Shown: positions 7,602 to 33,651 of the stretch, piece after piece
Layout of the letters: the number at the start of each line of letters is the position of its first letter
Numbering within the stretch: position 1 is the stretch's first letter
DNA from: Haloglomus litoreum
Lineage (GTDB): Archaea; Halobacteriota; Halobacteria; Halobacteriales; Haloarculaceae
DNA length: 64,000 nt
NCBI RefSeq assembly: GCF_029338515.1
Contig: NZ_CP119988.1
Span: 1,426,001-1,490,000 of the forward strand
Direction of reading: 5' to 3'
Notes under the pieces: generated by a model
What the model was told of the DNA's origin: nothing
Databases searched by the model: none
The model's input: only the letters and a program-made list of their open reading frames with translations
Made by a program: the position numbers and the translations under genes

Positions 7602-8860
7602 GTCCCTCGCTCGACTACGAACGGGCGCGTGAGTACACCGACGCCCTCGAGGGGCGGCTCGTCGACGCGCTCGACGGCGACCAGGGCGTCAGCCGCCGGG
7701 CCGTCCTCGGGAGCCTCGGCCTGGCCGGTGGCGCCGCGCTGATGGGCACCGGTGGGGCCGACGACGGCCACGCCGGCGCCGGCGGCGGCGAGAGCCACGG
7801 GAACTTCGGGGCTCGCGGCGAGTTCGACGAGGGGTTCGACCCCCACGAGTTCCTCCGGACGTTCAACACCGGCTTCGATGGCCAGGACAACCTGACCCAG
7901 GAGGTGTTCGAGGAGGACGGCGAGCGGGTCCGCTACTTCGAGCTGACCGCCGTCGACACCACCATCGAAGTGGCGCCGGGCGTCGAGTTCTCGGCGTGGG
8001 CCTACCAGGGACAGGTCCCCGGGCCGACGCTGCGGGTGACCGAGGGCGACCGCATCCGGGTGCAGTTCACCAACGGGAGCCGACACGCACACACCATCCA
8101 CCCGCACCTGAAGAACCTCGACCCGCGGATGGACGGCATTCCGCAGAACGGCCCCGGCGTCCTCGAACAGGGGGAGTCGTTCACCTACGAGTGGAAGGCC
8201 CAGCCCGCGGGCGTCCACTTCTACCACTGCCACTCGCTCCCGCTGAAGGCCCACATCCACCGGGGGCTCTACGGGAGCATCATCGTCGACCCGGACCCAG
8301 AGCGGGTCCGCGAGCGGCCCGAGGAGTACTGTGACTTCCACGAGTCACAGATCACGCCCGAACTGACCGAGGAACTCGTCGCCCGCGCGAAGTCGCGCAA
8401 CCACGAGTACGACGAGAACGACGAGGTGCAGGAGCTGGTCGTCGTCATGAACAGCTTCGACACCAACTTCGACGGCGGCAACGAGGTGTACGCCGCGAAC
8501 ACGCGGGCCTTCGCCTACGGTGTCGGCGAGACCGACGGCAAGGGCAACTGGGCCCCGGGCGAGACCAAGCGGCCCATCCAGGTCGACGGCCAGCGACCGG
8601 TCCGGGTGTACCTGGTCAACGCGACGGAGTTCGACCTCATCAACTCGTTCCACACCCACTCGCAGTTCTTCGACTACTACGACCACGGGACGACGCTGCT
8701 CCCGACCAACCAGACGGTGGACACGGTCATGCAGTGTCAGGCACAGCGCGGCATCATCGAACTGGACTACTCCGACCACGAGCCGGGACTGTACATGTTC
8801 CACGCGCACCAGTCGGAGTTCGCGGAACTGGGCTGGATGAGCTTCTTCGAGGTGGTCTGA
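7598..8860 (+). CDS. Exported two-domain multicopper oxidase
   Basis: A 420-residue exported protein. A twin-arginine signal (SRRAVLG, then a hydrophobic stretch) lies at about residues 41-62. Two cupredoxin domains follow. Domain 1 has HTIHPH and YHCHS, the latter with the type-1 copper cysteine. Domain 2 has FHTHS and FHAHQ but no cysteine. Four HxH motifs suggest a trinuclear copper centre, and a blue copper only in domain 1 is the 'type C' two-domain arrangement. The residue expected as the axial methionine appears to be Leu (HRGLYG). It sits 1 nt before the ZIP gene, and an operator upstream suggests metal control. The start is uncertain: GTG 7598 is in frame, while the only nearby ATG belongs to another frame. 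Confidence 0.85.
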   Translation: MSPSLDYERAREYTDALEGRLVDALDGDQGVSRRAVLGSLGLAGGAALMGTGGADDGHAGAGGGESHGNFGARGEFDEGFDPHEFLRTFNTGFDGQDNLTQEVFEEDGERVRYFELTAVDTTIEVAPGVEFSAWAYQGQVPGPTLRVTEGDRIRVQFTNGSRHAHTIHPHLKNLDPRMDGIPQNGPGVLEQGESFTYEWKAQPAGVHFYHCHSLPLKAHIHRGLYGSIIVDPDPERVRERPEEYCDFHESQITPELTEELVARAKSRNHEYDENDEVQELVVVMNSFDTNFDGGNEVYAANTRAFAYGVGETDGKGNWAPGETKRPIQVDGQRPVRVYLVNATEFDLINSFHTHSQFFDYYDHGTTLLPTNQTVDTVMQCQAQRGIIELDYSDHEPGLYMFHAHQSEFAELGWMSFFEVV

Positions 8861-8861
8861 G

Positions 8862-10091
8862 ATGCAGGATTCCGATACGACAGAGACAGACGGCGGCGTG
8901 ACGGTGCAGGACCAGCCCTTCGGCCTCCCGCGGTGGGCGGTCGCCGTGATACCGCTGGTGCTGCTGGCCATCGTGCTGGGGTACCTGTTCCTCGGGTCGC
9001 CGTTCGCCGCGCTGGCGACCGGGGGCGCGGCGCTGCCTGACGTGACGGTCTCGTACACCACGTTGCCGGACGACCAGACGGTGCTGGTCCACGTGACCAA
9101 CAACGGCCCGGGGACGGTGACCGTCGAGCAGGTGCTCGTCGACGAGGCCTACTGGTCGTTCTCGATGACCGGCGGCGATAGGACGCTCGGGCCACTGGAG
9201 AGTTCGACGGTCCAGATCCCCTACCACTGGGAGCCCGGCTGGGACCTGGAGGTGGCGCTCGTCCTCTCGGACGGCGCGACCATCCACCACACCATCGTCG
9301 CGCCCGCGACGAGCCCTGGCGTGACGGGCGAGGTCGTCGGGACGCTCGCGGTCGTCGGGCTGTTCGTCGGCGTCATCCCGGTCGTGCTGGGGATGCTGTG
9401 GCTCCCGTACCTGCGGTCGGTCTCCGACCGCGCGCTCCACGCCGTCCTCGTGTTCGCGGTGGGCGTCCTCGCCTTCCTCGGCTTCGACGCCCTCGTGGAC
9501 GTCGGGGAGTTCATGGAGGCGGTGCCGGGCGCGTACGAGGGGCCGTTCCTCTTCGCGCTCGGCGTGGCCGGGTCGGTGCTGGTCATCCAGGCGGTCAGCG
9601 CCTGGCAGGAGTCCCGGACCGAGGGCGAGACGAGTCGCCTCCGGACGGCGTATCTGGTGGCGGTCTCCATCGGCCTGCACAACCTCGCGGAGGGGCTGGC
9701 CATCGGGACCGCGTTCGCGCTCGGCCGGGTCGAACTCGGCGCGTTCCTCGTGGTCGGCTTCCTCGTCCACAACGTGACCGAGGGACCGGCCATCGTGGGG
9801 CCGCTCGCACGCGGTCGCCGCCCCGGCATCGAGCACTTCGCGGCGCTCGGGCTCATCGGCGGCGCGCCGGTCATCGCCGGCGCGTGGATCGGGAGCTACG
9901 CGTTCTCGCCCACGCTCGGCGTGTTCTTCCTCGCCATCGGTGTGGGAGCCATCCTCCAAGTCGTCTGGGAGATGGCGGACCTCGTCCGCGGCGAGGACGG
10001 CCTCGCCAGCATCGGGACGCCCGTCAACGCGGGGGCGTTCCTGTTCGGCGCCGTCTTCATGTACGTGACCGGGCTGTTCATCGCGCTCTGA
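8862..10091 (+). CDS. ZIP-family metal transporter with an extra N-terminal domain
   Basis: A 409-residue membrane protein, unusually long for a ZIP transporter. A first hydrophobic segment lies at about 23-45. About 100 residues of beta-rich, non-membrane sequence follow (roughly 50-150), then a polytopic ZIP core. The core carries the metal-site motif HNLAEGLAIG and a second HNVTEGPAI helix, both of the HN-x2-EG type. ZIP proteins carry zinc, iron or manganese toward the cytoplasm. It follows the multicopper oxidase by 1 nt, so the two probably work as a unit, the oxidase perhaps changing metal redox state outside the cell. Metal identity is unknown. Confidence 0.85.
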   Translation: MQDSDTTETDGGVTVQDQPFGLPRWAVAVIPLVLLAIVLGYLFLGSPFAALATGGAALPDVTVSYTTLPDDQTVLVHVTNNGPGTVTVEQVLVDEAYWSFSMTGGDRTLGPLESSTVQIPYHWEPGWDLEVALVLSDGATIHHTIVAPATSPGVTGEVVGTLAVVGLFVGVIPVVLGMLWLPYLRSVSDRALHAVLVFAVGVLAFLGFDALVDVGEFMEAVPGAYEGPFLFALGVAGSVLVIQAVSAWQESRTEGETSRLRTAYLVAVSIGLHNLAEGLAIGTAFALGRVELGAFLVVGFLVHNVTEGPAIVGPLARGRRPGIEHFAALGLIGGAPVIAGAWIGSYAFSPTLGVFFLAIGVGAILQVVWEMADLVRGEDGLASIGTPVNAGAFLFGAVFMYVTGLFIAL

Positions 10092-10172
10092 GCGCGGTCC
10101 TACGCTCGTGTCCCGTCTCTGCATCGGCGTCCGAGGTGGGAAGGATTAAATGTGGGCTGTAACTACAATAGA

Positions 10173-10186
10173 TTAGACGACGCTAA
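10173..10186. promoter_or_regulatory. Second DtxR/SirR-type operator before the metal ABC importer
   Basis: TTAGACGACGCTAA keeps the TTAG-N6-CTAA frame of the 7532 palindrome, with inner bases less symmetric. It begins 22 nt after a TATA-like TTAAAT at 10146-10151 and ends 14 nt before the start codon. Binding there would cover the transcription start. Confidence 0.65.
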
Positions 10187-10200
10187 ACCTTCGATTCGAT

Positions 10201-11301
10201 ATGCATTCCTCAGACGAGACACGCGACGACGGTCGAGCGGTGACGCGACGAGACGCCCTACGCGCCGGCGGTGCGGCGGCGGCACTGGCGGGGCTGGCAG
10301 GTTGTACGGCGCTCCCGAGTGCCCCCGGACAGGCCGGAAGCGACGGTGACGGTGACGGCGAGAGCGACGGCCCGGTCGCCGTGGCCTCCTTCTTCAGCTT
10401 CTTCGACTTCGGGCGGGAGATCGCCGAGGGGACGCCCCTGACGGTGGAGAACCTCGTGCCGACGGGGCTGCACGGGCACGGCTGGGAGCCCAACGCCAGT
10501 ATCACCCAGCGCATCATCGAGGCGGACGCCTTCGTCCACGTCGGGAAGGACTTCCAGCCGTGGGCCGACCGCGCCATCGAGACCATCGAGGGCGACGACG
10601 TCGACACGGCGCTCATCAACGTCCGGGCGGGTATCGAGCTCGTGGACCTCGCCGAGACCCTCGACCGCGAGGAGGAGGGCGTCGGCGCCCAGCGCGGCAA
10701 GGACCCGCACTTCTGGCTGGACCCCCGGCGCGCGAAGCAGTCGGTCGACAACATCGCCGAGGGGTTCGCCGACCTGCTGCCCGACCACGCCGAGGCCTTC
10801 CGGGAGAACGCCGAGACCTACAAATCGGACGTGCTCGACCGCATCGACGCCGACTACGAGGCCATCTTCGACGCCGCCGAGCGCGACATCGTCCAGTTGG
10901 CCGCGCACAACGCCTTCCAGTACATCGGGGTGCGCTACGGCGTGCGGATGCGGCCGCTGGTGACGAACCTCGCCGCCAGCGGCGACGTCAAGCCCGCGGA
11001 CATCCGCGAGGCCGCGGAGGTCATCCGCGAGAACGACATCCGGTACATCGCCAACGGCGTGTTCGAGTCCCAGCGCCCGGCCCAACAGCTCGTCCGGGAG
11101 ACGGGCGTCGAGGCGTACTTCCCCGTGACGCCGTACGCCGGCGTCCGGAAGGAGTGGGTCGCGGAGAACTGGGGGTACGAGGAGATCGCCGACAACATCA
11201 ACATGCCCACGTTCGAGATCGTCCTCGGCAACAAGACGCCGGAGGAGGCCGCGCCGTCGCCCGAGTGGCTCGAACAGTGGCGGAACTTCGAGCCGGTATG
11301 A
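10201..11301 (+). CDS. Metal ABC transporter substrate-binding lipoprotein (ZnuA/MntA-like)
   Basis: A 366-residue protein of the cluster A-I metal-binding family. The N terminus has a twin-arginine motif (TRRDALRAGG) and lipobox LAGC at about residues 33-36, so it is a Tat-exported lipoprotein. Likely metal ligands: His in GLHGHGWEP, the GKDPHFWLDP His, an AAHNAFQY His and a C-terminal acidic residue. It lacks a long His-rich loop, so zinc, manganese and iron all remain possible. It overlaps the ATPase gene by 4 nt (ATGA) and heads the operon. Confidence 0.9.
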   Translation: MHSSDETRDDGRAVTRRDALRAGGAAAALAGLAGCTALPSAPGQAGSDGDGDGESDGPVAVASFFSFFDFGREIAEGTPLTVENLVPTGLHGHGWEPNASITQRIIEADAFVHVGKDFQPWADRAIETIEGDDVDTALINVRAGIELVDLAETLDREEEGVGAQRGKDPHFWLDPRRAKQSVDNIAEGFADLLPDHAEAFRENAETYKSDVLDRIDADYEAIFDAAERDIVQLAAHNAFQYIGVRYGVRMRPLVTNLAASGDVKPADIREAAEVIRENDIRYIANGVFESQRPAQQLVRETGVEAYFPVTPYAGVRKEWVAENWGYEEIADNINMPTFEIVLGNKTPEEAAPSPEWLEQWRNFEPV

Positions 11302-12092
11302 GCACGTCCGACACCGACACCACGGCGGACGCGGCGGGCGCCGAGACGGCCGACGAGCCCGTCATCGACCTCGCGAACGTGACCTTCGGCTACACCGCGA
11401 CACCGGTGGTCGAGGACATCTCGCTGACGGTCGAGCCCGGCGAGTACGTCGCCGTCGTCGGGCCGAACGGTTCCGGCAAGTCGACGCTGATGCAACTGAT
11501 GCTCGGGTTGCTGGAGCCCGACACCGGGACGGCTCGCCTGTTCGGCGAGCGCGCGGGCCGGTTCGACGATGGCGAGCGGGTCGGCTACGTCGCCCAGCAC
11601 GCCAGCGCCGCGAAGGAGATGCCCATCACCGTCCGCGAGGTGGTCAAGATGGGCCGGTTCCCCCACGTCGGCTTCGGCCGGCTGTCGAGCGAGGACTGGA
11701 CCATCGTCGACGACGCGCTCGACACGGTCGGCATGACCGCGTTCGCGGACCGCCGTATCACCCAGCTTTCGGGCGGCCAGCGCCAGCGCGCGTTCATCGC
11801 CCGGGCGCTCGCCAGTGAAGCCGACCTGCTCGTGCTGGACGAACCGACCGTCGGCGTCGACGCCGAGTCGGTCGACGCGTTCTACGACCTGCTCGGGGCG
11901 CTCAACGACCAGGGCATCACCGTCCTTCTCATCGAGCACGACCTCGGGGCGGTCGTCGAGCACGCCGACCGGGTCGTCTGTCTCAACCGCGAGCTCTACT
12001 TCGACGGCCCGACCGACGAGTTCGTGGAGAGCGACGCGCTGGCGCGGGCGTTCGGGACCAGCGCGGGCTTCCTGACGGGGGTGGACGGATGA
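11298..12092 (+). CDS. Metal ABC transporter ATP-binding protein (ZnuC-like)
   Basis: A 264-residue ATPase powering the importer. Walker A GPNGSGKST lies at about residue 56, the Q-loop at YVAQHAS, the signature LSGGQRQR at about 157, Walker B LLVLDEPTVG, and the H-loop IEHDL. An acidic N-terminal extension of about 22 residues precedes the domain, a common halophile addition. ATGA overlaps with both the binding-protein gene and the permease gene indicate translational coupling. Confidence 0.93.
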   Translation: MSTSDTDTTADAAGAETADEPVIDLANVTFGYTATPVVEDISLTVEPGEYVAVVGPNGSGKSTLMQLMLGLLEPDTGTARLFGERAGRFDDGERVGYVAQHASAAKEMPITVREVVKMGRFPHVGFGRLSSEDWTIVDDALDTVGMTAFADRRITQLSGGQRQRAFIARALASEADLLVLDEPTVGVDAESVDAFYDLLGALNDQGITVLLIEHDLGAVVEHADRVVCLNRELYFDGPTDEFVESDALARAFGTSAGFLTGVDG

Positions 12093-13180
12093 GCGCGAGC
12101 GCCGGCCTGCTGGCCACCGTCCTGACGGGTCTCCTCGCGGCCGTCGACCCGTCGCTGCTGCTCCCCCTGCAGGGCGGCCTGGGTGCCGTCGGTGATCTCG
12201 TCTTCGGCGTCCTGCTGTGGTTCCTGGAGCAGTGGTACTGGCTCATGGACTGGGTGTACTACTTCACCGGGCTGGAGATGCTGAACCCGGACTACCGGTA
12301 CATGCACCGTGCCGTCCTGGTCGGGCTCTGCGTCGGCGTGATGGCGCCGCTCATCGGGACCTTCCTCGTCCACAGACAGCTCGCGCTCATCGGAGACGCG
12401 CTGGCCCACACGGCCTTCGCCGGAGTCGCCGTCGGCCTGTTCCTGAACGCCGTCATCGACCTCGGGGTGTCGCCGTACCTGACCGCGGTCGTGGTGGCGA
12501 TGATCGCGGCGCTGTTCATCGAGCTCATCTCCGAGACGACCGACGCGTACAACGACGTCTCGATGGCCATCGTCCTCTCGACGGGGTTCGCACTCGGGAC
12601 CACGCTCATCAGCCTCAATGCCGGCGGGCTGGCCGTCGGGGTCAACCAGTTCCTCTTCGGCAACCTCGCGACGGTCTCCCCGCAGAGCGCGGCCATCCTG
12701 CTCGTGCTGTTCGCCGTCATCGTCGGCACCATCGCGGTGACGCGCAACCAGCTGCTGTACGTCACCTTCGACGAGACCGCCGCCGAGGTCTCGGGCATCC
12801 CCGTCAACTGGTACAACCGCGTGATGGTGATGCTGACGGCGATGGTCGTCGTCGGCGCGATGCAGATCATGGGCGTCATCCTCGTCGCCGCGATGCTCGT
12901 GGTCCCGGTGGCGGGCGCGACGCAGGTGTCGCGCTCGTTCTCGGAGTCGCTGATCGTCTCGGTCGTCCTCGCGGAGCTGGCGGTGCTACTCGGCATCGGC
13001 GTCTCCTACTACGGCGGCGTCACCGCGGGCGGCGTCATCGTCCTCGTCGCGGTGGGCATCTACGTCTGTGCGGTCGCGCTGGGCAAGCTCCAGTCCGCCC
13101 GTGGCGAGCGGACCACGCCCGACATGGGGAGCATCGAGGCCGAGGGTGCCGAGTCCGGCGCCGGGACCGGGGGTGACTGA
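12089..13180 (+). CDS. Metal ABC transporter permease (ABC-3 family)
   Basis: A 363-residue polytopic membrane protein of the ABC-3 family, with about eight to nine hydrophobic segments. The conserved HRQLALIGDALAHTAFAGVA block lies at about residues 92-111, and the GMQIMGVILVAA-type loop is close to MQIMGVILVAAMLVVPVA. The first 70 residues contain extra hydrophobic segments and a Trp-rich stretch (LWFLEQWYWLMDW) not usual in bacterial ZnuB. Its stop codon overlaps the start of the regulator gene by 1 nt, so importer and regulator are probably one transcript. Confidence 0.92.
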   Translation: MSASAGLLATVLTGLLAAVDPSLLLPLQGGLGAVGDLVFGVLLWFLEQWYWLMDWVYYFTGLEMLNPDYRYMHRAVLVGLCVGVMAPLIGTFLVHRQLALIGDALAHTAFAGVAVGLFLNAVIDLGVSPYLTAVVVAMIAALFIELISETTDAYNDVSMAIVLSTGFALGTTLISLNAGGLAVGVNQFLFGNLATVSPQSAAILLVLFAVIVGTIAVTRNQLLYVTFDETAAEVSGIPVNWYNRVMVMLTAMVVVGAMQIMGVILVAAMLVVPVAGATQVSRSFSESLIVSVVLAELAVLLGIGVSYYGGVTAGGVIVLVAVGIYVCAVALGKLQSARGERTTPDMGSIEAEGAESGAGTGGD

Positions 13181-27890: not shown

Positions 27891-28757
27891 TCACATCCGG
27901 CGTTCGATACGGCGCAGCGCGACGCGCCCGGCCTCGCTCACGGCGTGGAGCCGGTGTCCGCCGTCGTTGAGTCGGCCCTCGACGCGGTCGCGCCGCGCCC
28001 GTCCGCCCGTCAGGTCGAGGTCCGAACTGACTCGCCCCTCGGCCTCGGCCAGCACGTCCAGGTCTAGGTCGTCGGCCACGCCGACCACCACCTCGCCCAT
28101 CCCGGAACTGATCTCGACGTCCCCGCGAGCCCCGAGCAGTTCCACCTGCACCCGGCCGAGGTCGGTGCGGGCCTCGTCGAGCCCGGTCACGTCGGCGGCC
28201 TCGATACGGCCCGCGCTCGCCCGCAGCGAGAGGTACCCGTCGACGCGGTTCGCGACGATGGCGCCGGCCACGGCCTCGACGGCGGTGTCGCCCCGCGTAT
28301 CGGTCAGCGTCACCTCGCCCGCGCCGGTTCGGACGGTGTCGACATCCGGCCCTCCAGTCCCTGCCGGGACCACGACCGTCACGTCGGCGCGTGGGGTCCG
28401 CGGCGTGTCGACCGGGCCGCCGTCCACCGTCGAGACGACCGTCAGGGTGCCCTCCCGTACGGTCGCCGTCACGTCCACCCGGTCGAGGCCGCGCTGACCG
28501 TTCCACGAGCGCGCCACCGCGGTCACGTCCACCGTGTCGGTCTCCCGGCCGACGACGGTCACGTCGCCCACGTCGCTGTCCACCCGAACCACGTCGACCT
28601 CCGCCGCGGGGAACGTCCAGTCCCGGCGACGGCTCGTCTCGCCGGCCGGGACGCCACGCACCGTACAGCCAGCGAGGGCCGCCGCCGCGGCGAGCGCGCC
28701 CGCACCGAGGAAGGTTCGTCGGTCCATCCGGCCGTCGGAGGTCGTCGTCGTGTCCAT
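27891..28757 (-). CDS. Tat lipoprotein with DUF4097-type beta repeats
   Basis: A 288-residue exported protein. The twin-arginine signal is DRRTFLGAGALAAAAALAGC, with the lipobox cysteine at about residue 31. The remainder is a run of short beta strands rich in V, D, T and G (VRVDSDVGDVTVVG; VDTVRTGAGEVTLTDTRGD; LRASAGRIEAADV), the beta-helix-like DUF4097 pattern. Bacterial relatives such as YvlB/LiaG-type proteins belong to envelope-stress systems. The promoter carries the 16-bp palindrome at 28793, shared with the exporter and CPBP protease genes. Confidence 0.85.
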   Translation of the reverse strand: MDTTTTSDGRMDRRTFLGAGALAAAAALAGCTVRGVPAGETSRRRDWTFPAAEVDVVRVDSDVGDVTVVGRETDTVDVTAVARSWNGQRGLDRVDVTATVREGTLTVVSTVDGGPVDTPRTPRADVTVVVPAGTGGPDVDTVRTGAGEVTLTDTRGDTAVEAVAGAIVANRVDGYLSLRASAGRIEAADVTGLDEARTDLGRVQVELLGARGDVEISSGMGEVVVGVADDLDLDVLAEAEGRVSSDLDLTGGRARRDRVEGRLNDGGHRLHAVSEAGRVALRRIERRM

Positions 28758-28792
28758 ACACTGTGGAGGCTGTCTCGTTGCTTAACCGGTCC

Positions 28793-28808
28793 CAGAAGCC
28801 CGCTTCTG
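28793..28808 (-). promoter_or_regulatory. 16-bp palindrome, site 1 of a shared operator
   Basis: CAGAAGC-CC-GCTTCTG, 35 nt before the start codon of the lipoprotein gene. A TTAA TATA-like box follows about 8 nt inside it on the coding strand (28785-28782). It is one of four such sites at 28.8-32.8 kb with the frame CAGAA-N6-TTCTG. Confidence 0.75.
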
Positions 28809-28843
28809 TACGCGAGAGTGTGTCTCGCTGCGCGGTACGGTGA

Positions 28844-29740
28844 CTACGCGCTCGTCCGCTCGACGCTGCTGACGCTCGCGTCAGCCTCCAGGGTCGCGGT
28901 GACCCGCTCGTCCCCGTGCTCCAGCCGGACCGCCATCCGCGGCGGGGATTCGGCCAGGAGTTCCCCCCTCGGGAGGCCGACCTCCCCGAGTTCCCACGTC
29001 GGGGTCCGACCACTCTCGAAGCCGTGGTCGTAGAGGAACCCCGCGACGGCGGGATGGTGCATCATGGGCGCAGCGCCGGAGGTGGTCGCGGTACTCCCAC
29101 AGCGGTCGCACTCGAACTCCGCGTGGGCGGGCAGTCCACCCATCTTCCCGTCCGGCTCGTCGACGACCAGCCGGCCGCTCATGCGCCCGGCACAGGTGTA
29201 GCAGAAGCCGTCGATGACGCCGCCGATGACGTGGTTCATCCACCGGTCGAACGCGAGCGGTAGCTCCGTCCGGTCGAACTGGTCGAGGCTCCCCGGCGGG
29301 AACGCGAAGTCGTTCCGGAACGCGTCGCACGCCGTGCAGTCGACGCGTGCGGTCTCCGCAGCGTATTCGGCGACCAGGTCGCCGCCACAGGCCGGGCAGC
29401 CCTCCTCGACCGGGATGGCATCGACGGTCGCGTTCGCGGTGTAGACGCCGGCGTACATCGCACCGATGACCTGGCGCCCGGCGTAGGTGAGTTCGTAGCC
29501 GTCGTCGGTCCGGCGGACGAAGGTCCCGCGGAGCTTGCCGAGGTGGTAGTTGAACCGGCCACTGTCGGCCACCTCCGACCGGCGGTGCAGTTCAGCGAAG
29601 GGCACGGGTTCGTCGGGCGTCTCACCAAGCGCCTGCAGGATGCGCAGGCGGCTCTCGTCGCCCAGCAGCCCGAAGACCGCCTCCGGGGAGCGCCGCTCGA
29701 CGCTGATGGCGCCGCTCCCGGTGTCGTACTCGCCACTCAT
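28844..29740 (-). CDS. ArsR-like regulator with zinc-binding C-terminal domain (DUF7351-like)
   Basis: A 298-residue protein. An N-terminal winged helix (about 15-85) has GDESRLRILQAL and a recognition region GRFNYHLGKL. A large C-terminal domain follows with CPACGGD...CTAC at about 112-134 and CYTC / CDRCGS at about 173-206, consistent with zinc binding. It resembles haloarchaeal ArsR-type proteins with a DUF7351 domain. It lies within the group of genes that share the 16-bp palindrome and is the nearest candidate to bind it, though its own promoter lacks a copy. Confidence 0.85.
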   Translation of the reverse strand: MSGEYDTGSGAISVERRSPEAVFGLLGDESRLRILQALGETPDEPVPFAELHRRSEVADSGRFNYHLGKLRGTFVRRTDDGYELTYAGRQVIGAMYAGVYTANATVDAIPVEEGCPACGGDLVAEYAAETARVDCTACDAFRNDFAFPPGSLDQFDRTELPLAFDRWMNHVIGGVIDGFCYTCAGRMSGRLVVDEPDGKMGGLPAHAEFECDRCGSTATTSGAAPMMHHPAVAGFLYDHGFESGRTPTWELGEVGLPRGELLAESPPRMAVRLEHGDERVTATLEADASVSSVERTSA

Positions 29741-29832
29741 ATGTCACCAATCGGCGCCGTAGTATAAGGCTGTATCGCCGTGAAAGGAACTGTCTCGGTC
29801 GGTGAGCCCCGGCCCCGAGCCGACCTCGGGAC

Positions 29833-30687
29833 TCAGAGGTCTGCGCGCGCGAAGCGGCGGTAGCCCAGCGCCAGCGGGACGACCAGCCACGCCGCGAGGA
29901 CGGCCATGCTGGCCCAGCCGGTCAGGTAGAACGGGACCGGGCCGGCGAGCTGTGCGCCCAGTGCCGCCGCGGTCGCGGTGCCGTCACCGAGGAACCAGCC
30001 CAGGGCGTTCGTGTACGCCGCGCTCGGGGTGACGACGTTCAGGAAGGCGACCCAGCCGGGAACCGCCGCGCCGCCGGGCATCGCGAAGCCGTTGACGACG
30101 AACAGCGCCGCCAGCGGGACGACGTCCGCGAGGACCTCGAGGACGACGAACGCGCCGATCCCGAACGCCATCGCGCGGCCGCCGCTCCCCGTCGTTGCGG
30201 AGATGGCGACCATGATGCCGATGTACACCAGCGCGAGCACGAGCGTCATCGCGGTGAAGACCGCGTAGTCGACGGGCGCGAACGAGTCGAACAGGACCAG
30301 CGCCACGACGAGCGTGATGGCCAGCCCGACCACGATGGCCGCGCCGAGGACGGCGGTCCGTCCGACCAGCTTCCCGAGGACCACGTCCGCGCGGCTGTGC
30401 GGGAAGCCCAGGAGGAGCTTGCCCGAGCCGCTGGCGCGTTCACCGGCGATGGCGCCGGCCCCGATGACGATGGCGGCGATGGAGACGAACAGCGTCACCG
30501 CGCCGATGAGCAGCGTCAGGAACCCCAGCGTGCTCACCTCGCCGATGTCCTGGCTCACGGCCGGGACCGTGCCGTACAGCACCGCGAAGCCGACCGACAT
30601 GAGGACGAACAGGCCCGTGACGGCCCACAGGCCCCGCGAGAGGCGGGCGTCCCGGAAGTCCTTGCGCGCGACGACGACCCAGCTCAT
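29833..30687 (-). CDS. ABC-2 type exporter permease
   Basis: A 284-residue membrane protein with six hydrophobic segments, starting WVVVARKDFRDARLSRGLWAV, the usual amphipathic start of haloarchaeal ABC-2 permeases. Segment 2 ends with IAGERASGSGKLLLGFPHSR, the conserved cytoplasmic block of this family, and the last segment closes at LALGYRRFARADL. Its ATG overlaps the ATPase stop by 4 nt. With the ATPase it forms an exporter of unknown substrate. Control is probably through the palindrome at 31699. Confidence 0.88.
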   Translation of the reverse strand: MSWVVVARKDFRDARLSRGLWAVTGLFVLMSVGFAVLYGTVPAVSQDIGEVSTLGFLTLLIGAVTLFVSIAAIVIGAGAIAGERASGSGKLLLGFPHSRADVVLGKLVGRTAVLGAAIVVGLAITLVVALVLFDSFAPVDYAVFTAMTLVLALVYIGIMVAISATTGSGGRAMAFGIGAFVVLEVLADVVPLAALFVVNGFAMPGGAAVPGWVAFLNVVTPSAAYTNALGWFLGDGTATAAALGAQLAGPVPFYLTGWASMAVLAAWLVVPLALGYRRFARADL

Positions 30688-31661
30688 GCGCGCACCTCCG
30701 GGGCCTCGTCGTCGGCTGCTGGCGCGTCTGCCTCCGTCTCCCCGGCCGCGTCCGGTGCGTCCTCGGTGTAGGCGGCGAACAGCTCCTCCAGCGACACGTC
30801 CTCGGTGTCGAAGTCGAGCAGGCGGGCGCCGGCGGCCTCGACCGCGGCGAGGACCGCCGTCTTCGCGGCCTCCTCACAGGCGACCGAGAGCTGGCCCTCG
30901 CCGTCCTCGCGGACGCTGGAGACGCCCTCGACCGCCGCGACCGCCGCAACCAGGTCCTCGCTGACGGGGTCGACGGTGAGGGTGAGCCGGGCCTCGCTGC
31001 CCAGCGCGCCCCGCAGCGCGTCGATGGTGTCGACCGCGACGAGGCGACCCTCGCGGAGGATGCCGACGCGGTCACAGACCGCCTCGACCTGCTCGAGGAT
31101 GTGCGAGGAGAAGAAGACGGTCGCGCCGCGGTCGCGCTCCTCGCGGATGATTTCGCGCATCCGGCGCGCTCCATTCGGGTCCAGCCCGGTCGTCGGCTCG
31201 TCCAGGACGAGAACGTCGGGCTCACCCACGAGCGCCATCGCGAGGACGAGGCGCTGTTTCATCCCCTTCGAGAAGCCGCCCGCCTTCCGGTCGGCCGCGT
31301 CCGCGAGGCCGACGCGCTCGAGGACGGCGTCGATGTCGTCGGTCGCGCGCTTCGAGTCGACCGCGAACTCGAGGTGCTGGCGGGCGGTCAGCCGGTCGTA
31401 GAGGTGGTAGCCGTCCGGGAGGACGCCGACCCGTCGCCGGACCGCCAGCGAGTCGGCCTGCGCGTCGTACCCGAGGACCGCCGCCGAGCCCGCGGTCGGG
31501 CGCACGAAGTCGAGCAGGATGTCGATGGTCGTCGACTTCCCGGCACCGTTCGGTCCGAGGAAGCCGAATATCTCGCCCTCCGCCACGGAGAGGCTCACGT
31601 CGTCGAGTGCGGTCACGTCGCCGTACCGCTTCGTTACACCGCGCAGTTCGATTGCACTCAT
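30684..31661 (-). CDS. ABC transporter ATP-binding protein (ABC-2 exporter)
   Basis: A 325-residue ATPase. Walker A GPNGAGKST is at about residue 38, the Q-loop at GVLPDGYHLYDRL, the signature FSKGMKQRL at about 130, Walker B VLVLDEPTTGLDP and H-loop SSHILEQ. A C-terminal regulatory part of about 110 residues (LTLTVDPVSEDLVAAVAAVE...) and an acidic tail follow, the architecture of exporter ATPases paired with ABC-2 permeases. The start at 31659-31661 is supported by the palindrome 37 nt upstream and a TATA-like GCTATA between. Confidence 0.92.
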   Translation of the reverse strand: MSAIELRGVTKRYGDVTALDDVSLSVAEGEIFGFLGPNGAGKSTTIDILLDFVRPTAGSAAVLGYDAQADSLAVRRRVGVLPDGYHLYDRLTARQHLEFAVDSKRATDDIDAVLERVGLADAADRKAGGFSKGMKQRLVLAMALVGEPDVLVLDEPTTGLDPNGARRMREIIREERDRGATVFFSSHILEQVEAVCDRVGILREGRLVAVDTIDALRGALGSEARLTLTVDPVSEDLVAAVAAVEGVSSVREDGEGQLSVACEEAAKTAVLAAVEAAGARLLDFDTEDVSLEELFAAYTEDAPDAAGETEADAPAADDEAPEVRA

Positions 31662-31698
31662 CGGTCGAGAGATTGCTGCAAGCGGATATAGCCACTCG

Positions 31699-31714
31699 CA
31701 GAAGCCGGCTTCTG
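31699..31714 (-). promoter_or_regulatory. 16-bp palindrome, site 2 of a shared operator
   Basis: CAGAAGC-CG-GCTTCTG, perfect over all 16 bp, 37 nt before the exporter ATPase start. GCTATATCC follows on the coding strand as the TATA-like element. Confidence 0.8.
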
Positions 31715-31802
31715 TGTGCGATAGCATGGCGCCCGCGACAGCTGCCTGGCGGACCGGCTGGGGTCCCGCACGCCGGTTTCCCCTGTCTGTCCTCGTCCCG
31801 TA

Positions 31803-31818
31803 CAGAACGGCGCTTCTG
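31803..31818 (+). promoter_or_regulatory. 16-bp palindrome, site 3 of a shared operator
   Basis: CAGAACG-GC-GCTTCTG, 36 nt before the CPBP protease start; the outer A/T pair extends it to ACAGAA...TTCTGT. GAGCAGTTATCC follows, almost the same as at site 4. Confidence 0.75.
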
Positions 31819-31854
31819 TGAGCAGTTATCCCCTCCCTCGGCGTCCCTGGCGTC

Positions 31855-32619
31855 ATGGAGACCACCACTCGTACGGAACTCTCCGGAATCGACCCGACCA
31901 CCGAAGCACCGAGCCGGCTCCGCGCCGTCCTCTTCGCCATCGCCGTCACGCTGGGCGCCGCGCTGTACGTCCCGCTCGTGGTCGGCTCCGTCGCGGAGGC
32001 GTGGGCGCTGCTCGGGAACGACGGCTTCCTCGTCCCGTTCGCCGTCGGCGGCACCCTCGCGACGCTCTCGCTCGGCGCGATGGCGTACTACTACGTCCGC
32101 TACACCTCGCTGACGGTTCCCGTTCGCGTGCCGACCCGGCGCGACCTCGGGTGGGTCGTCGTCGGCATCGTCGTCCCGCTCGCGGTCCAGGTGGGACTGG
32201 TCCTCCTCGGCAGCCGGTTCGGCGTCGAACCCGTCGGCGGCGGCATCGATGCGGCCGCGGCGGCGGATCCGGTGCTGGTCTACTCGCTGGCGCTCGTCTC
32301 CGCCCTGTTCCTCATCGGCCCCGTCGAGGAGCTGCTGTACCGCGGCGTCGTGCAGGGCAGGCTCCGGCAGTCCTTCGGGCCCGTCGCGGCCATCGGCCTC
32401 ACCTCGCTGGGGTTCGCAGCCGGCCACGTCGCAACGCTCGTCTGGGGCGGCGGTGACCCGTTCACCCTCGGCTTCGGTCTCTCGCTGGCCGCCATCGCGG
32501 CGGGCTCGGTCGTCCTCGGTGTCGTCTACGAGCGTACCGGGAACCTCGTCCCGGCCGTCCTCGCGCACAGCCTGTTCAACGGCCTCCTCATCGCGACGGC
32601 GCTGGCGGCGGTACTCTGA
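31855..32619 (+). CDS. CPBP-family intramembrane metalloprotease
   Basis: A 254-residue membrane protein with about seven hydrophobic segments. The CPBP (Abi/Rce1) motifs are all there: EELLYRG at about 158-164, FAAGHV with a metal-ligand His at about 185-190, and the final HSLFNG near 241-246. The family includes CAAX-type prenyl endopeptidases and bacteriocin-immunity proteins. It is divergent from the ABC exporter, and both promoters carry the same palindrome, which favours a linked role in export or self-protection; this is inference. Confidence 0.9.
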   Translation: METTTRTELSGIDPTTEAPSRLRAVLFAIAVTLGAALYVPLVVGSVAEAWALLGNDGFLVPFAVGGTLATLSLGAMAYYYVRYTSLTVPVRVPTRRDLGWVVVGIVVPLAVQVGLVLLGSRFGVEPVGGGIDAAAAADPVLVYSLALVSALFLIGPVEELLYRGVVQGRLRQSFGPVAAIGLTSLGFAAGHVATLVWGGGDPFTLGFGLSLAAIAAGSVVLGVVYERTGNLVPAVLAHSLFNGLLIATALAAVL

Positions 32620-32728
32620 GGCGGCCTCCACGGGGGGTTCCGGTGTCCATGCAAGTTCCTTGTGCCCGTCTCAATCCGTGTATGGCTACACTTCGATGCT
32701 TATGTGTGGCATCTGGTGCCAACCGCCA

Positions 32729-32744
32729 CAGAATCGGATTTCTG
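32729..32744 (+). promoter_or_regulatory. 16-bp palindrome, site 4 of a shared operator
   Basis: CAGAATC-GG-ATTTCTG, 35 nt before the ATG at 32780. GAGCAGTTATGTC follows, matching site 3. The constant distance to the start codon supports 32780 as the true start. Confidence 0.75.
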
Positions 32745-32779
32745 CGAGCAGTTATGTCGATAGCTGCCCTCCCGAAGCC

Positions 32780-33295
32780 ATGATACCGAGATGGTTCGCC
32801 GTGGTTCCGGCGGTGCTGCTCCTCGCGCTCGGCGGTGCGGTACTCGTCGGCGCGGGCACGGACGCGCCGGCCCCGACTGACGCCAGGGCGGTGCCGGGGA
32901 CGACGCCCACCGGCGGGGTCCCCGAGAACCCCACCGAGGCGGTGGTCCGTCAGTTCGTCTCCGGGGCGGGGGTCTGTGAGCCCGCCGTCCCGGTAGGCGT
33001 GACGATGCACACGAACGCCTCCGGCGCCGTCACACTGGTCGTCACCGGCGGGCTCGCGACCGACGACGCCGCCCGCTTCGCACCGCCGGCCGCCCTGACC
33101 GAGCCCGAACCCGGGGAGTACGTCCTCTGGACCTCGACGCGGGCGGACGCGGACCGACGGCCGCGCCCGTGTGCCGACGCGGGCCACGTCCCGTACGAGG
33201 CCACCATCGAACTCCCGGCCGGTACCGAGCCCGTGACGCTGACCGTGATGCACGAGGGCGGGGCCGCGGCGACGTGGAGGGCTCCGGGCTCGTGA
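32780..33295 (+). CDS. Secreted or membrane-anchored protein of unknown function
   Basis: A 171-residue protein with an N-terminal hydrophobic segment (FAVVPAVLLLALGGAVLVGA, about residues 6-25), then a Pro/Thr-rich linker and a beta-rich domain at about 50-165. The domain has two cysteines, GVCEPAVPVGV and PRPCADAG, which could pair outside the cell. No family recognised. The start is fixed by the upstream palindrome at the same distance as its three sister sites. Its stop overlaps the GTG start of the next gene (GTGA), so the two are coupled. Confidence 0.75.
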   Translation: MIPRWFAVVPAVLLLALGGAVLVGAGTDAPAPTDARAVPGTTPTGGVPENPTEAVVRQFVSGAGVCEPAVPVGVTMHTNASGAVTLVVTGGLATDDAARFAPPAALTEPEPGEYVLWTSTRADADRRPRPCADAGHVPYEATIELPAGTEPVTLTVMHEGGAAATWRAPGS

Positions 33296-33651
33296 CCACG
33301 ACTCAGCTGACGGATGCGGTTCCGACAGACATCTCGCGGCGGGCCCGTGACCTCGTCGTCCCGGTGGCGGCCATCGGCGTCGCCCTCCTCGGACTCGCCG
33401 CCTCGACGCTCGCGGCGAACACCGCCCTCGCGATGGGGGAGATACCGGTCACACTCCTTCCGGGTGGCCGGTGGCTCGCGGCTCGCGGCCTCCCGGCGCT
33501 CGTCGCGTCCCGCCTGGCGGTGGTGCTGCTCGCCTACGGCCTGGCCGCCCGCCTCGCACCCCGCTACCGGTTGCACGCCCTCGCAGCAACGGGGCTGTGC
33601 TGGCTCCTGTGGGCCGGCTGGCAGTTCTGGGTGCTGCTGGCGCTGACGTGA
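33292..33651 (+). CDS. Three-segment membrane protein, unknown
   Basis: A 119-residue protein with hydrophobic segments at about 22-42, 66-84 and 95-117 and no recognised family. The GTG start overlaps the preceding stop codon, which argues that it is made together with the secreted protein. The pair might form a producer/anchor or toxin/immunity unit, but nothing in the sequence shows it. The 254 bp after it hold no clear gene. Confidence 0.7.
   Translation: MTTTQLTDAVPTDISRRARDLVVPVAAIGVALLGLAASTLAANTALAMGEIPVTLLPGGRWLAARGLPALVASRLAVVLLAYGLAARLAPRYRLHALAATGLCWLLWAGWQFWVLLALT

Follow-up and report, generated by a model that had tools for sequence, protein, structure and literature searches.

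The 64,000-nt stretch of the Haloglomus litoreum genome analysed here (the window) carries a gene cluster with four copies of the palindrome CAGAA-N6-TTCTG, and this raises the questions of whether the palindrome is an operator, which protein reads it and what the genes behind it do. A pattern search found exactly four matches in the window and none in each of 100 dinucleotide-preserving shuffles of the window. The whole genome (4,695,480 bp) contained five matches, and none of a reversed control pattern; four of the five were those of this cluster, within 4 kb, for which a scan approximation gave a rough chance probability of ~1e-7. On the minus strand, CAGAAGCGGGCTTCTG (28793-28808) was found 35 nt before the ATG of a lipoprotein gene, with the TATA-like GGTTAA at 28782-28787, and CAGAAGCCGGCTTCTG (31699-31714), a perfect palindrome, 37 nt before that of an ABC ATPase gene, with the TATA-like CTATAT at 31686-31691. 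On the plus strand, CAGAACGGCGCTTCTG (31803-31818) was 36 nt before the ATG of a CPBP gene and CAGAATCGGATTTCTG (32729-32744) 35 nt before that of an exported-protein gene, with a TATA-like TTAT at 31826-31829 and 32752-32755, respectively. These positions and recomputed distances agree with an earlier sequence-only reading of this DNA, as does the presence of N-G-A and then a TTA/TATA-like element at all four sites. The gap between palindrome and TATA-like element was 7-8 nt throughout, the spacers differed at every site, and none of the four is preceded, at 28 bp, by a second palindrome (up to two mismatches). Given the spacing from palindrome to TATA-like element and to ATG, the window promoters fit the leaderless or short-leader type, with the site directly upstream of the BRE. 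We consider CAGAA-N6-TTCTG, as judged from the DNA, to be very probably a regulatory operator and not a chance pattern.

The proteins encoded behind these sites make export and envelope function a plausible role of the cluster. The minus strand encodes an ABC-2 permease (29833-30687; PF12679, E=3.2e-44) and a DrrA-type ABC exporter ATPase (30684-31661; PF00005 and a weak PF13732 match). The plus strand encodes a CPBP/Rce1-like intramembrane protease (31855-32619; PF02517, E=1.2e-18) and an exported protein with an N-terminal hydrophobic segment (32780-33295), which is conserved in G001, a genome of the same genus, and in G018, one of another genus of the same family, and which matched no family among the Pfam and NCBIfam profiles. 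Its gene is overlapped by that of a small membrane protein (33292-33651, plus strand), and the two are probably co-transcribed. The remaining site precedes the gene of a TAT-signal lipoprotein (27891-28757, minus strand) with operator-bearing homologues in G018, in G365 (a genome of another family), in G339 and in G361. Its previous description as a DUF4097-type lipoprotein is approximate: it resembled NCBIfam LiaG below threshold (E = 1.5e-8, 34.2 bits, cut-off 285) and DUF4097 was found among other operator-linked targets, but the lipoprotein itself scored below the Pfam DUF4097 cut-off.

Between the lipoprotein and permease genes lies the gene of the candidate regulator (28844-29740, minus strand), which consists of a DUF7347 winged helix (PF24038, E=2.6e-31, 108.1 bits, cut-off 27.6) and a DUF7351 domain (PF24042, E=1.1e-45, 156 bits, cut-off 31.2). 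Both domains exceed the curated Pfam cut-offs and both are uncharacterised. The recognition helix of its DUF7347 domain is DSGRFNYHL, and an alignment revealed that DSG(R/Q/K)FNYHL is near-constant among the site-linked regulators. The cysteine pairs of DUF7351 are also conserved in the alignment, which suggests that this domain binds zinc. The DNA-binding domain resembles the ArsR/SmtB winged-helix regulators in weak matches to HTH_20 and NCBIfam HTH_metalloreg, but the latter reached 19.2 bits, below the cut-off of 55, and the regulator has the cysteine-rich DUF7351 in addition. A sequence search of solved structures returned only weak matches (ArsR, LysW-like zinc ribbon), and a structure prediction from four sequences (mean pLDDT 46.6) was too poor for use. 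The regulator's own promoter has a TATA-like TTATAC ~27 nt before the ATG, with a similar element in G001 and G365, and its upstream region was free of the palindrome. In a tree of the family, for which some sequences were chosen by site and others by homology, the site-linked members were spread over several clades, and the label was clustered.

Whether this protein and the palindrome belong together was addressed by a DNA-first search, independent of regulator homology, for the palindrome followed by N8 and TAT in 293 genomes of the order, which gave 79 matches in 58 genomes, compared to 1 for the reversed control. We examined 69 loci, i.e., most of the TATA-linked sites, and a regulator homologue was present in 44 of them. 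Homologues were found at 2 of 20 loci with palindromes selected without the TATA requirement, at both of which the palindrome directly adjoins the regulator gene (L010 lies in L118, and L014 in L095), and at 1 of 16 near-random loci of the H. litoreum genome; the expected background, roughly estimated from the homologues per genome, is about one or two per cent. At 33 of the 69 loci (counted from the table), the site was located within ~200 nt of the regulator stop codon, on the same strand and before the next gene, which was most often that of an MFS exporter. Among regulator homologues in the family, the interval from the stop codon to the following gene often contains such a palindrome or two of them at a distance of 28 bp, and loci that lacked an exact downstream site contained 14 relaxed sites, compared to 0 in the control. 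No exact or one-mismatch site was found within 8 kb of the close regulator homologues in G095 (60% identity) and Halorubellus (57%). Far from being randomly distributed in related genomes, the TATA-linked sites of the order adjoin homologous regulators and precede start codons by 35-37 nt. The cluster is less isolated than the sequence-only reading assumed and represents one instance of a regulator-operator arrangement that extends across the order.

A second layout of what appears to be the same regulator-operator system was also observed, in which the regulator is divergent (about eight of the 69 loci, counted from the table). At L136, L147, L158, L159, L167, L174 and L192, the sites adjoin a divergently transcribed and more distant regulator homologue, and the downstream genes there encode alpha-amylase, an oxidoreductase or another ABC ATPase.

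Transcription terminators, a dispersed repeat or chance are further conceivable explanations of the palindromes, and a location immediately behind a stop codon, as seen for many sites, would be in their favour. Three of the window sites, however, do not follow the regulator gene, and spacers that differ at every site argue against a copied repeat. We rejected these explanations, which we regard as very improbable, on the basis of the fixed distances to the start codon and the TATA-like element, the varied spacers, the 79 matches versus 1 in the control and the absence of matches from all 100 shuffles.

The cluster and its operators are kept in G001, G018 and G365. In G001, sites precede the genes of the ATPase, the CPBP protein and the exported protein; the vicinity of the cluster gave no lipoprotein match, and the regulator gene is not followed by a site. 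All four sites are kept in G018. The module of G365 (L193, G365:C1:1444001-1462000, 8600-12750) has sites before the ATPase and lipoprotein genes, and in the place of the missing CPBP gene stands a divergent MFS exporter gene with its own site; these three palindromes are all that the G365 genome contains. Its ATPase, permease and regulator are 88, 95 and 83% identical to those of the window, respectively. The permease identity to this other family thus exceeds that to G018 (76%), from which horizontal transfer of the module appears probable. In G002, another genome of the same genus, we found neither a palindrome nor a close orthologue of the permease, and the regulator paralogues there are all distant. 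LiaG-like lipoprotein genes of G339 and G361 have a site 37 nt upstream, and the 18 kb around them contain none of the regulator homologues; a regulator-linked palindrome pair is located elsewhere in the G339 genome. This pattern suggests control in trans.

These comparisons support the sites, their geometry, their conservation and their link to the regulator family, and we hold with good confidence, from sequence comparison, that the 28844-29740 regulator, the palindromic operator and the four-promoter regulon belong together. Comparative genomics, with homologues beside the palindrome across the order, likewise makes it probable that a single regulator serves the whole group and that it is the protein to which the sequence-only reading had assigned this part. 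The palindrome might be read instead by another DUF7351 paralogue or a global regulator, with the nearby gene incidental. The H. litoreum genome encodes 13 DUF7351 proteins, so another paralogue could be the binder, 25 of the 69 TATA-linked loci had no regulator homologue within the fetched flank, and the lipoprotein genes of G339 and G361 carry a site at a distance from any such gene. We consider this improbable, given that sites directly adjoin regulators of the 28844-29740 type in many genera and families, that the cluster with this regulator clade contains every one of the three sites in G365 and four of the five in H. litoreum, and that remote sites are to be expected of a regulator with additional action in trans.

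The geometry was further analysed for the 92 distinct sites collected across the order. A downstream ATG reading frame was present at 77 of them, and the distance from site to ATG, which was not a selection criterion (the TATA-like element was part of the search), was 35, 36 or 37 nt in 56 of the 77 and 35-40 nt in 66. A second palindrome (up to two mismatches) was found 28 bp upstream of 46 of the 92 sites. The G-A after the palindrome is not general across the order (G at position 18 in 29 of 92, A at position 19 in 45 of 92). A near-identical longer sequence around CAGAACGAACGTTCTG-GACCATATTAT is shared by L132, L177 and L182, from genomes of several families, where no obvious downstream ATG frame was seen.

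Among the 65 target proteins were 33 MFS proteins, 6 ABC ATPases, 4 M29 peptidases and 2 DUF4097 proteins, with one or two each of others; the M29 peptidase and alpha-amylase targets seem unrelated to export. At L146, L151, L175 and L176, the palindrome and a TATA-like box are located 35-36 nt before the ATG of an M29-type metallopeptidase, mostly without a close regulator homologue, and the M29 genes could be a separate target class or be under another regulator.

How the operator would act is best considered from its position. Exporter genes are often controlled by repressors that are released by the exporter substrate, and ArsR proteins are mostly repressors. The same regulator at the same operator could accordingly block TFB next to the BRE/TATA and be released by the substrate of the exporter, like the TetR and MarR control of efflux; with no more than 7-8 nt between palindrome and TATA-like element, the BRE would be covered or touched by a bound dimer, and the weak ArsR-family resemblance of the DNA-binding domain points the same way. 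Such repression is a real possibility, to which we give somewhat less than an even chance. Against it, a palindrome precedes the regulator gene itself in only 4 of 85 cases, which is not the layout usual for auto-repression, and in the archaeal cases reviewed, repressor sites are located downstream of the BRE/TATA and activator sites upstream (PMC4158304, PMC5937170). Since the operator lies directly upstream of the BRE/TATA, we lean slightly to the reading that the regulator is an activator that recruits TFB/TBP, by analogy to TFB-RF1 (PF1088) of Pyrococcus furiosus, which activates the ABC exporter operon pf1011/1012 through a palindrome that immediately precedes a weak BRE (PMC5937170).

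The likeness to TFB-RF1 includes a local regulator with a small regulon, conserved spacing between palindrome and BRE/TATA, and an ABC-2 drug-type exporter as target, whose ATPase also has PF13732. The TFB-RF1 palindrome is, however, TCTGAA-N-TTCAGA (13 nt) and not the 16-nt CAGAA-N6-TTCTG, and its operon is auto-activated, whereas the regulator described here has no operator upstream of its own gene. TFB recruitment was demonstrated for TFB-RF1 and is proposed here by analogy. Regulators of the TrmB family (PMC4158304) and EarA (PMC5512572) are also winged-helix proteins for which sites upstream of the BRE/TATA go with activation, but they belong to other Pfam families and recognize other motifs (e.g., TACT-N7-8-GAGTA for Halobacterium TrmB).

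In our favoured reading, in which binding, dimerisation, sign and signal are what we infer, the regulator would be made from its own palindrome-free promoter and bind as a dimer immediately upstream of the BRE/TATA at four promoters that are probably leaderless. Its DUF7351 domain would sense a signal, upon which the output of the four promoters, i.e., the ABC-2 exporter, the CPBP membrane protein, the LiaG-like lipoprotein and the secreted/membrane pair, would change together. From the nature of these outputs, the regulon likely responds to a compound that is toxic or acts on membranes. The envelope-stress or export module proposed earlier is plausible in this light, given the DrrA-type ABC-2 exporter, the LiaG/DUF4097-like lipoprotein, the CPBP protein and the MFS exporters elsewhere. 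Its other version, a halocin-like export and immunity module, is unsupported, because neither a halocin-like gene nor a known immunity family was found among the cluster proteins (Pfam, NCBIfam); we also found no literature that links the families of the cluster to halocins. A LiaG/DUF4097-like envelope protein beside a drug-type ABC exporter recalls the bacterial Lia envelope-stress system as an analogy only: the lipoprotein is below the LiaG cut-off, no LiaS-type sensor kinase or LiaF was recognised among the scanned cluster proteins, and the regulator is one-component.

A one-component regulator of exporters is of a known kind; the new part is the family-wide operator with its strict geometry. 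The operator appears to be real and well conserved and to belong to the regulator family, and no description of the CAGAA-N6-TTCTG motif, nor any mention of DUF7351 or DUF7347, was found in the open-access literature, an absence that is weak evidence. More tentatively, the DUF7347-DUF7351 proteins may be order-wide sensor-activators that recruit TFB to exporter and envelope-defence genes through a shared operator code (CAGAA-N6-TTCTG, alone or as a pair at 28 bp, with TATA ~8 nt and the start codon ~36 nt downstream), and so an archaeal counterpart of bacterial antibiotic-response modules. The proposed DNA target and function of two uncharacterised Pfam domains, which have many copies per haloarchaeal genome, are testable, and the sequence by itself becomes sufficient to predict regulons in a group of organisms about whose response to toxic compounds little is known. 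The case is also a test of the archaeal rule linking activation to sites upstream of the BRE/TATA. Genetic work may be feasible in Haloferax volcanii, whose genome, included as a control, was reported to have a DUF7351 match.

In addition to the exact palindrome, the variant CAGAAATGTAATTCAG was observed at L113 (11743-11758) and at L115 (12166-12181), the latter in the window's own genome; at both it is followed by a TATA-like box, and a regulator paralogue lies at a distance of 2 kb. Regulator paralogues may read slightly different operators.
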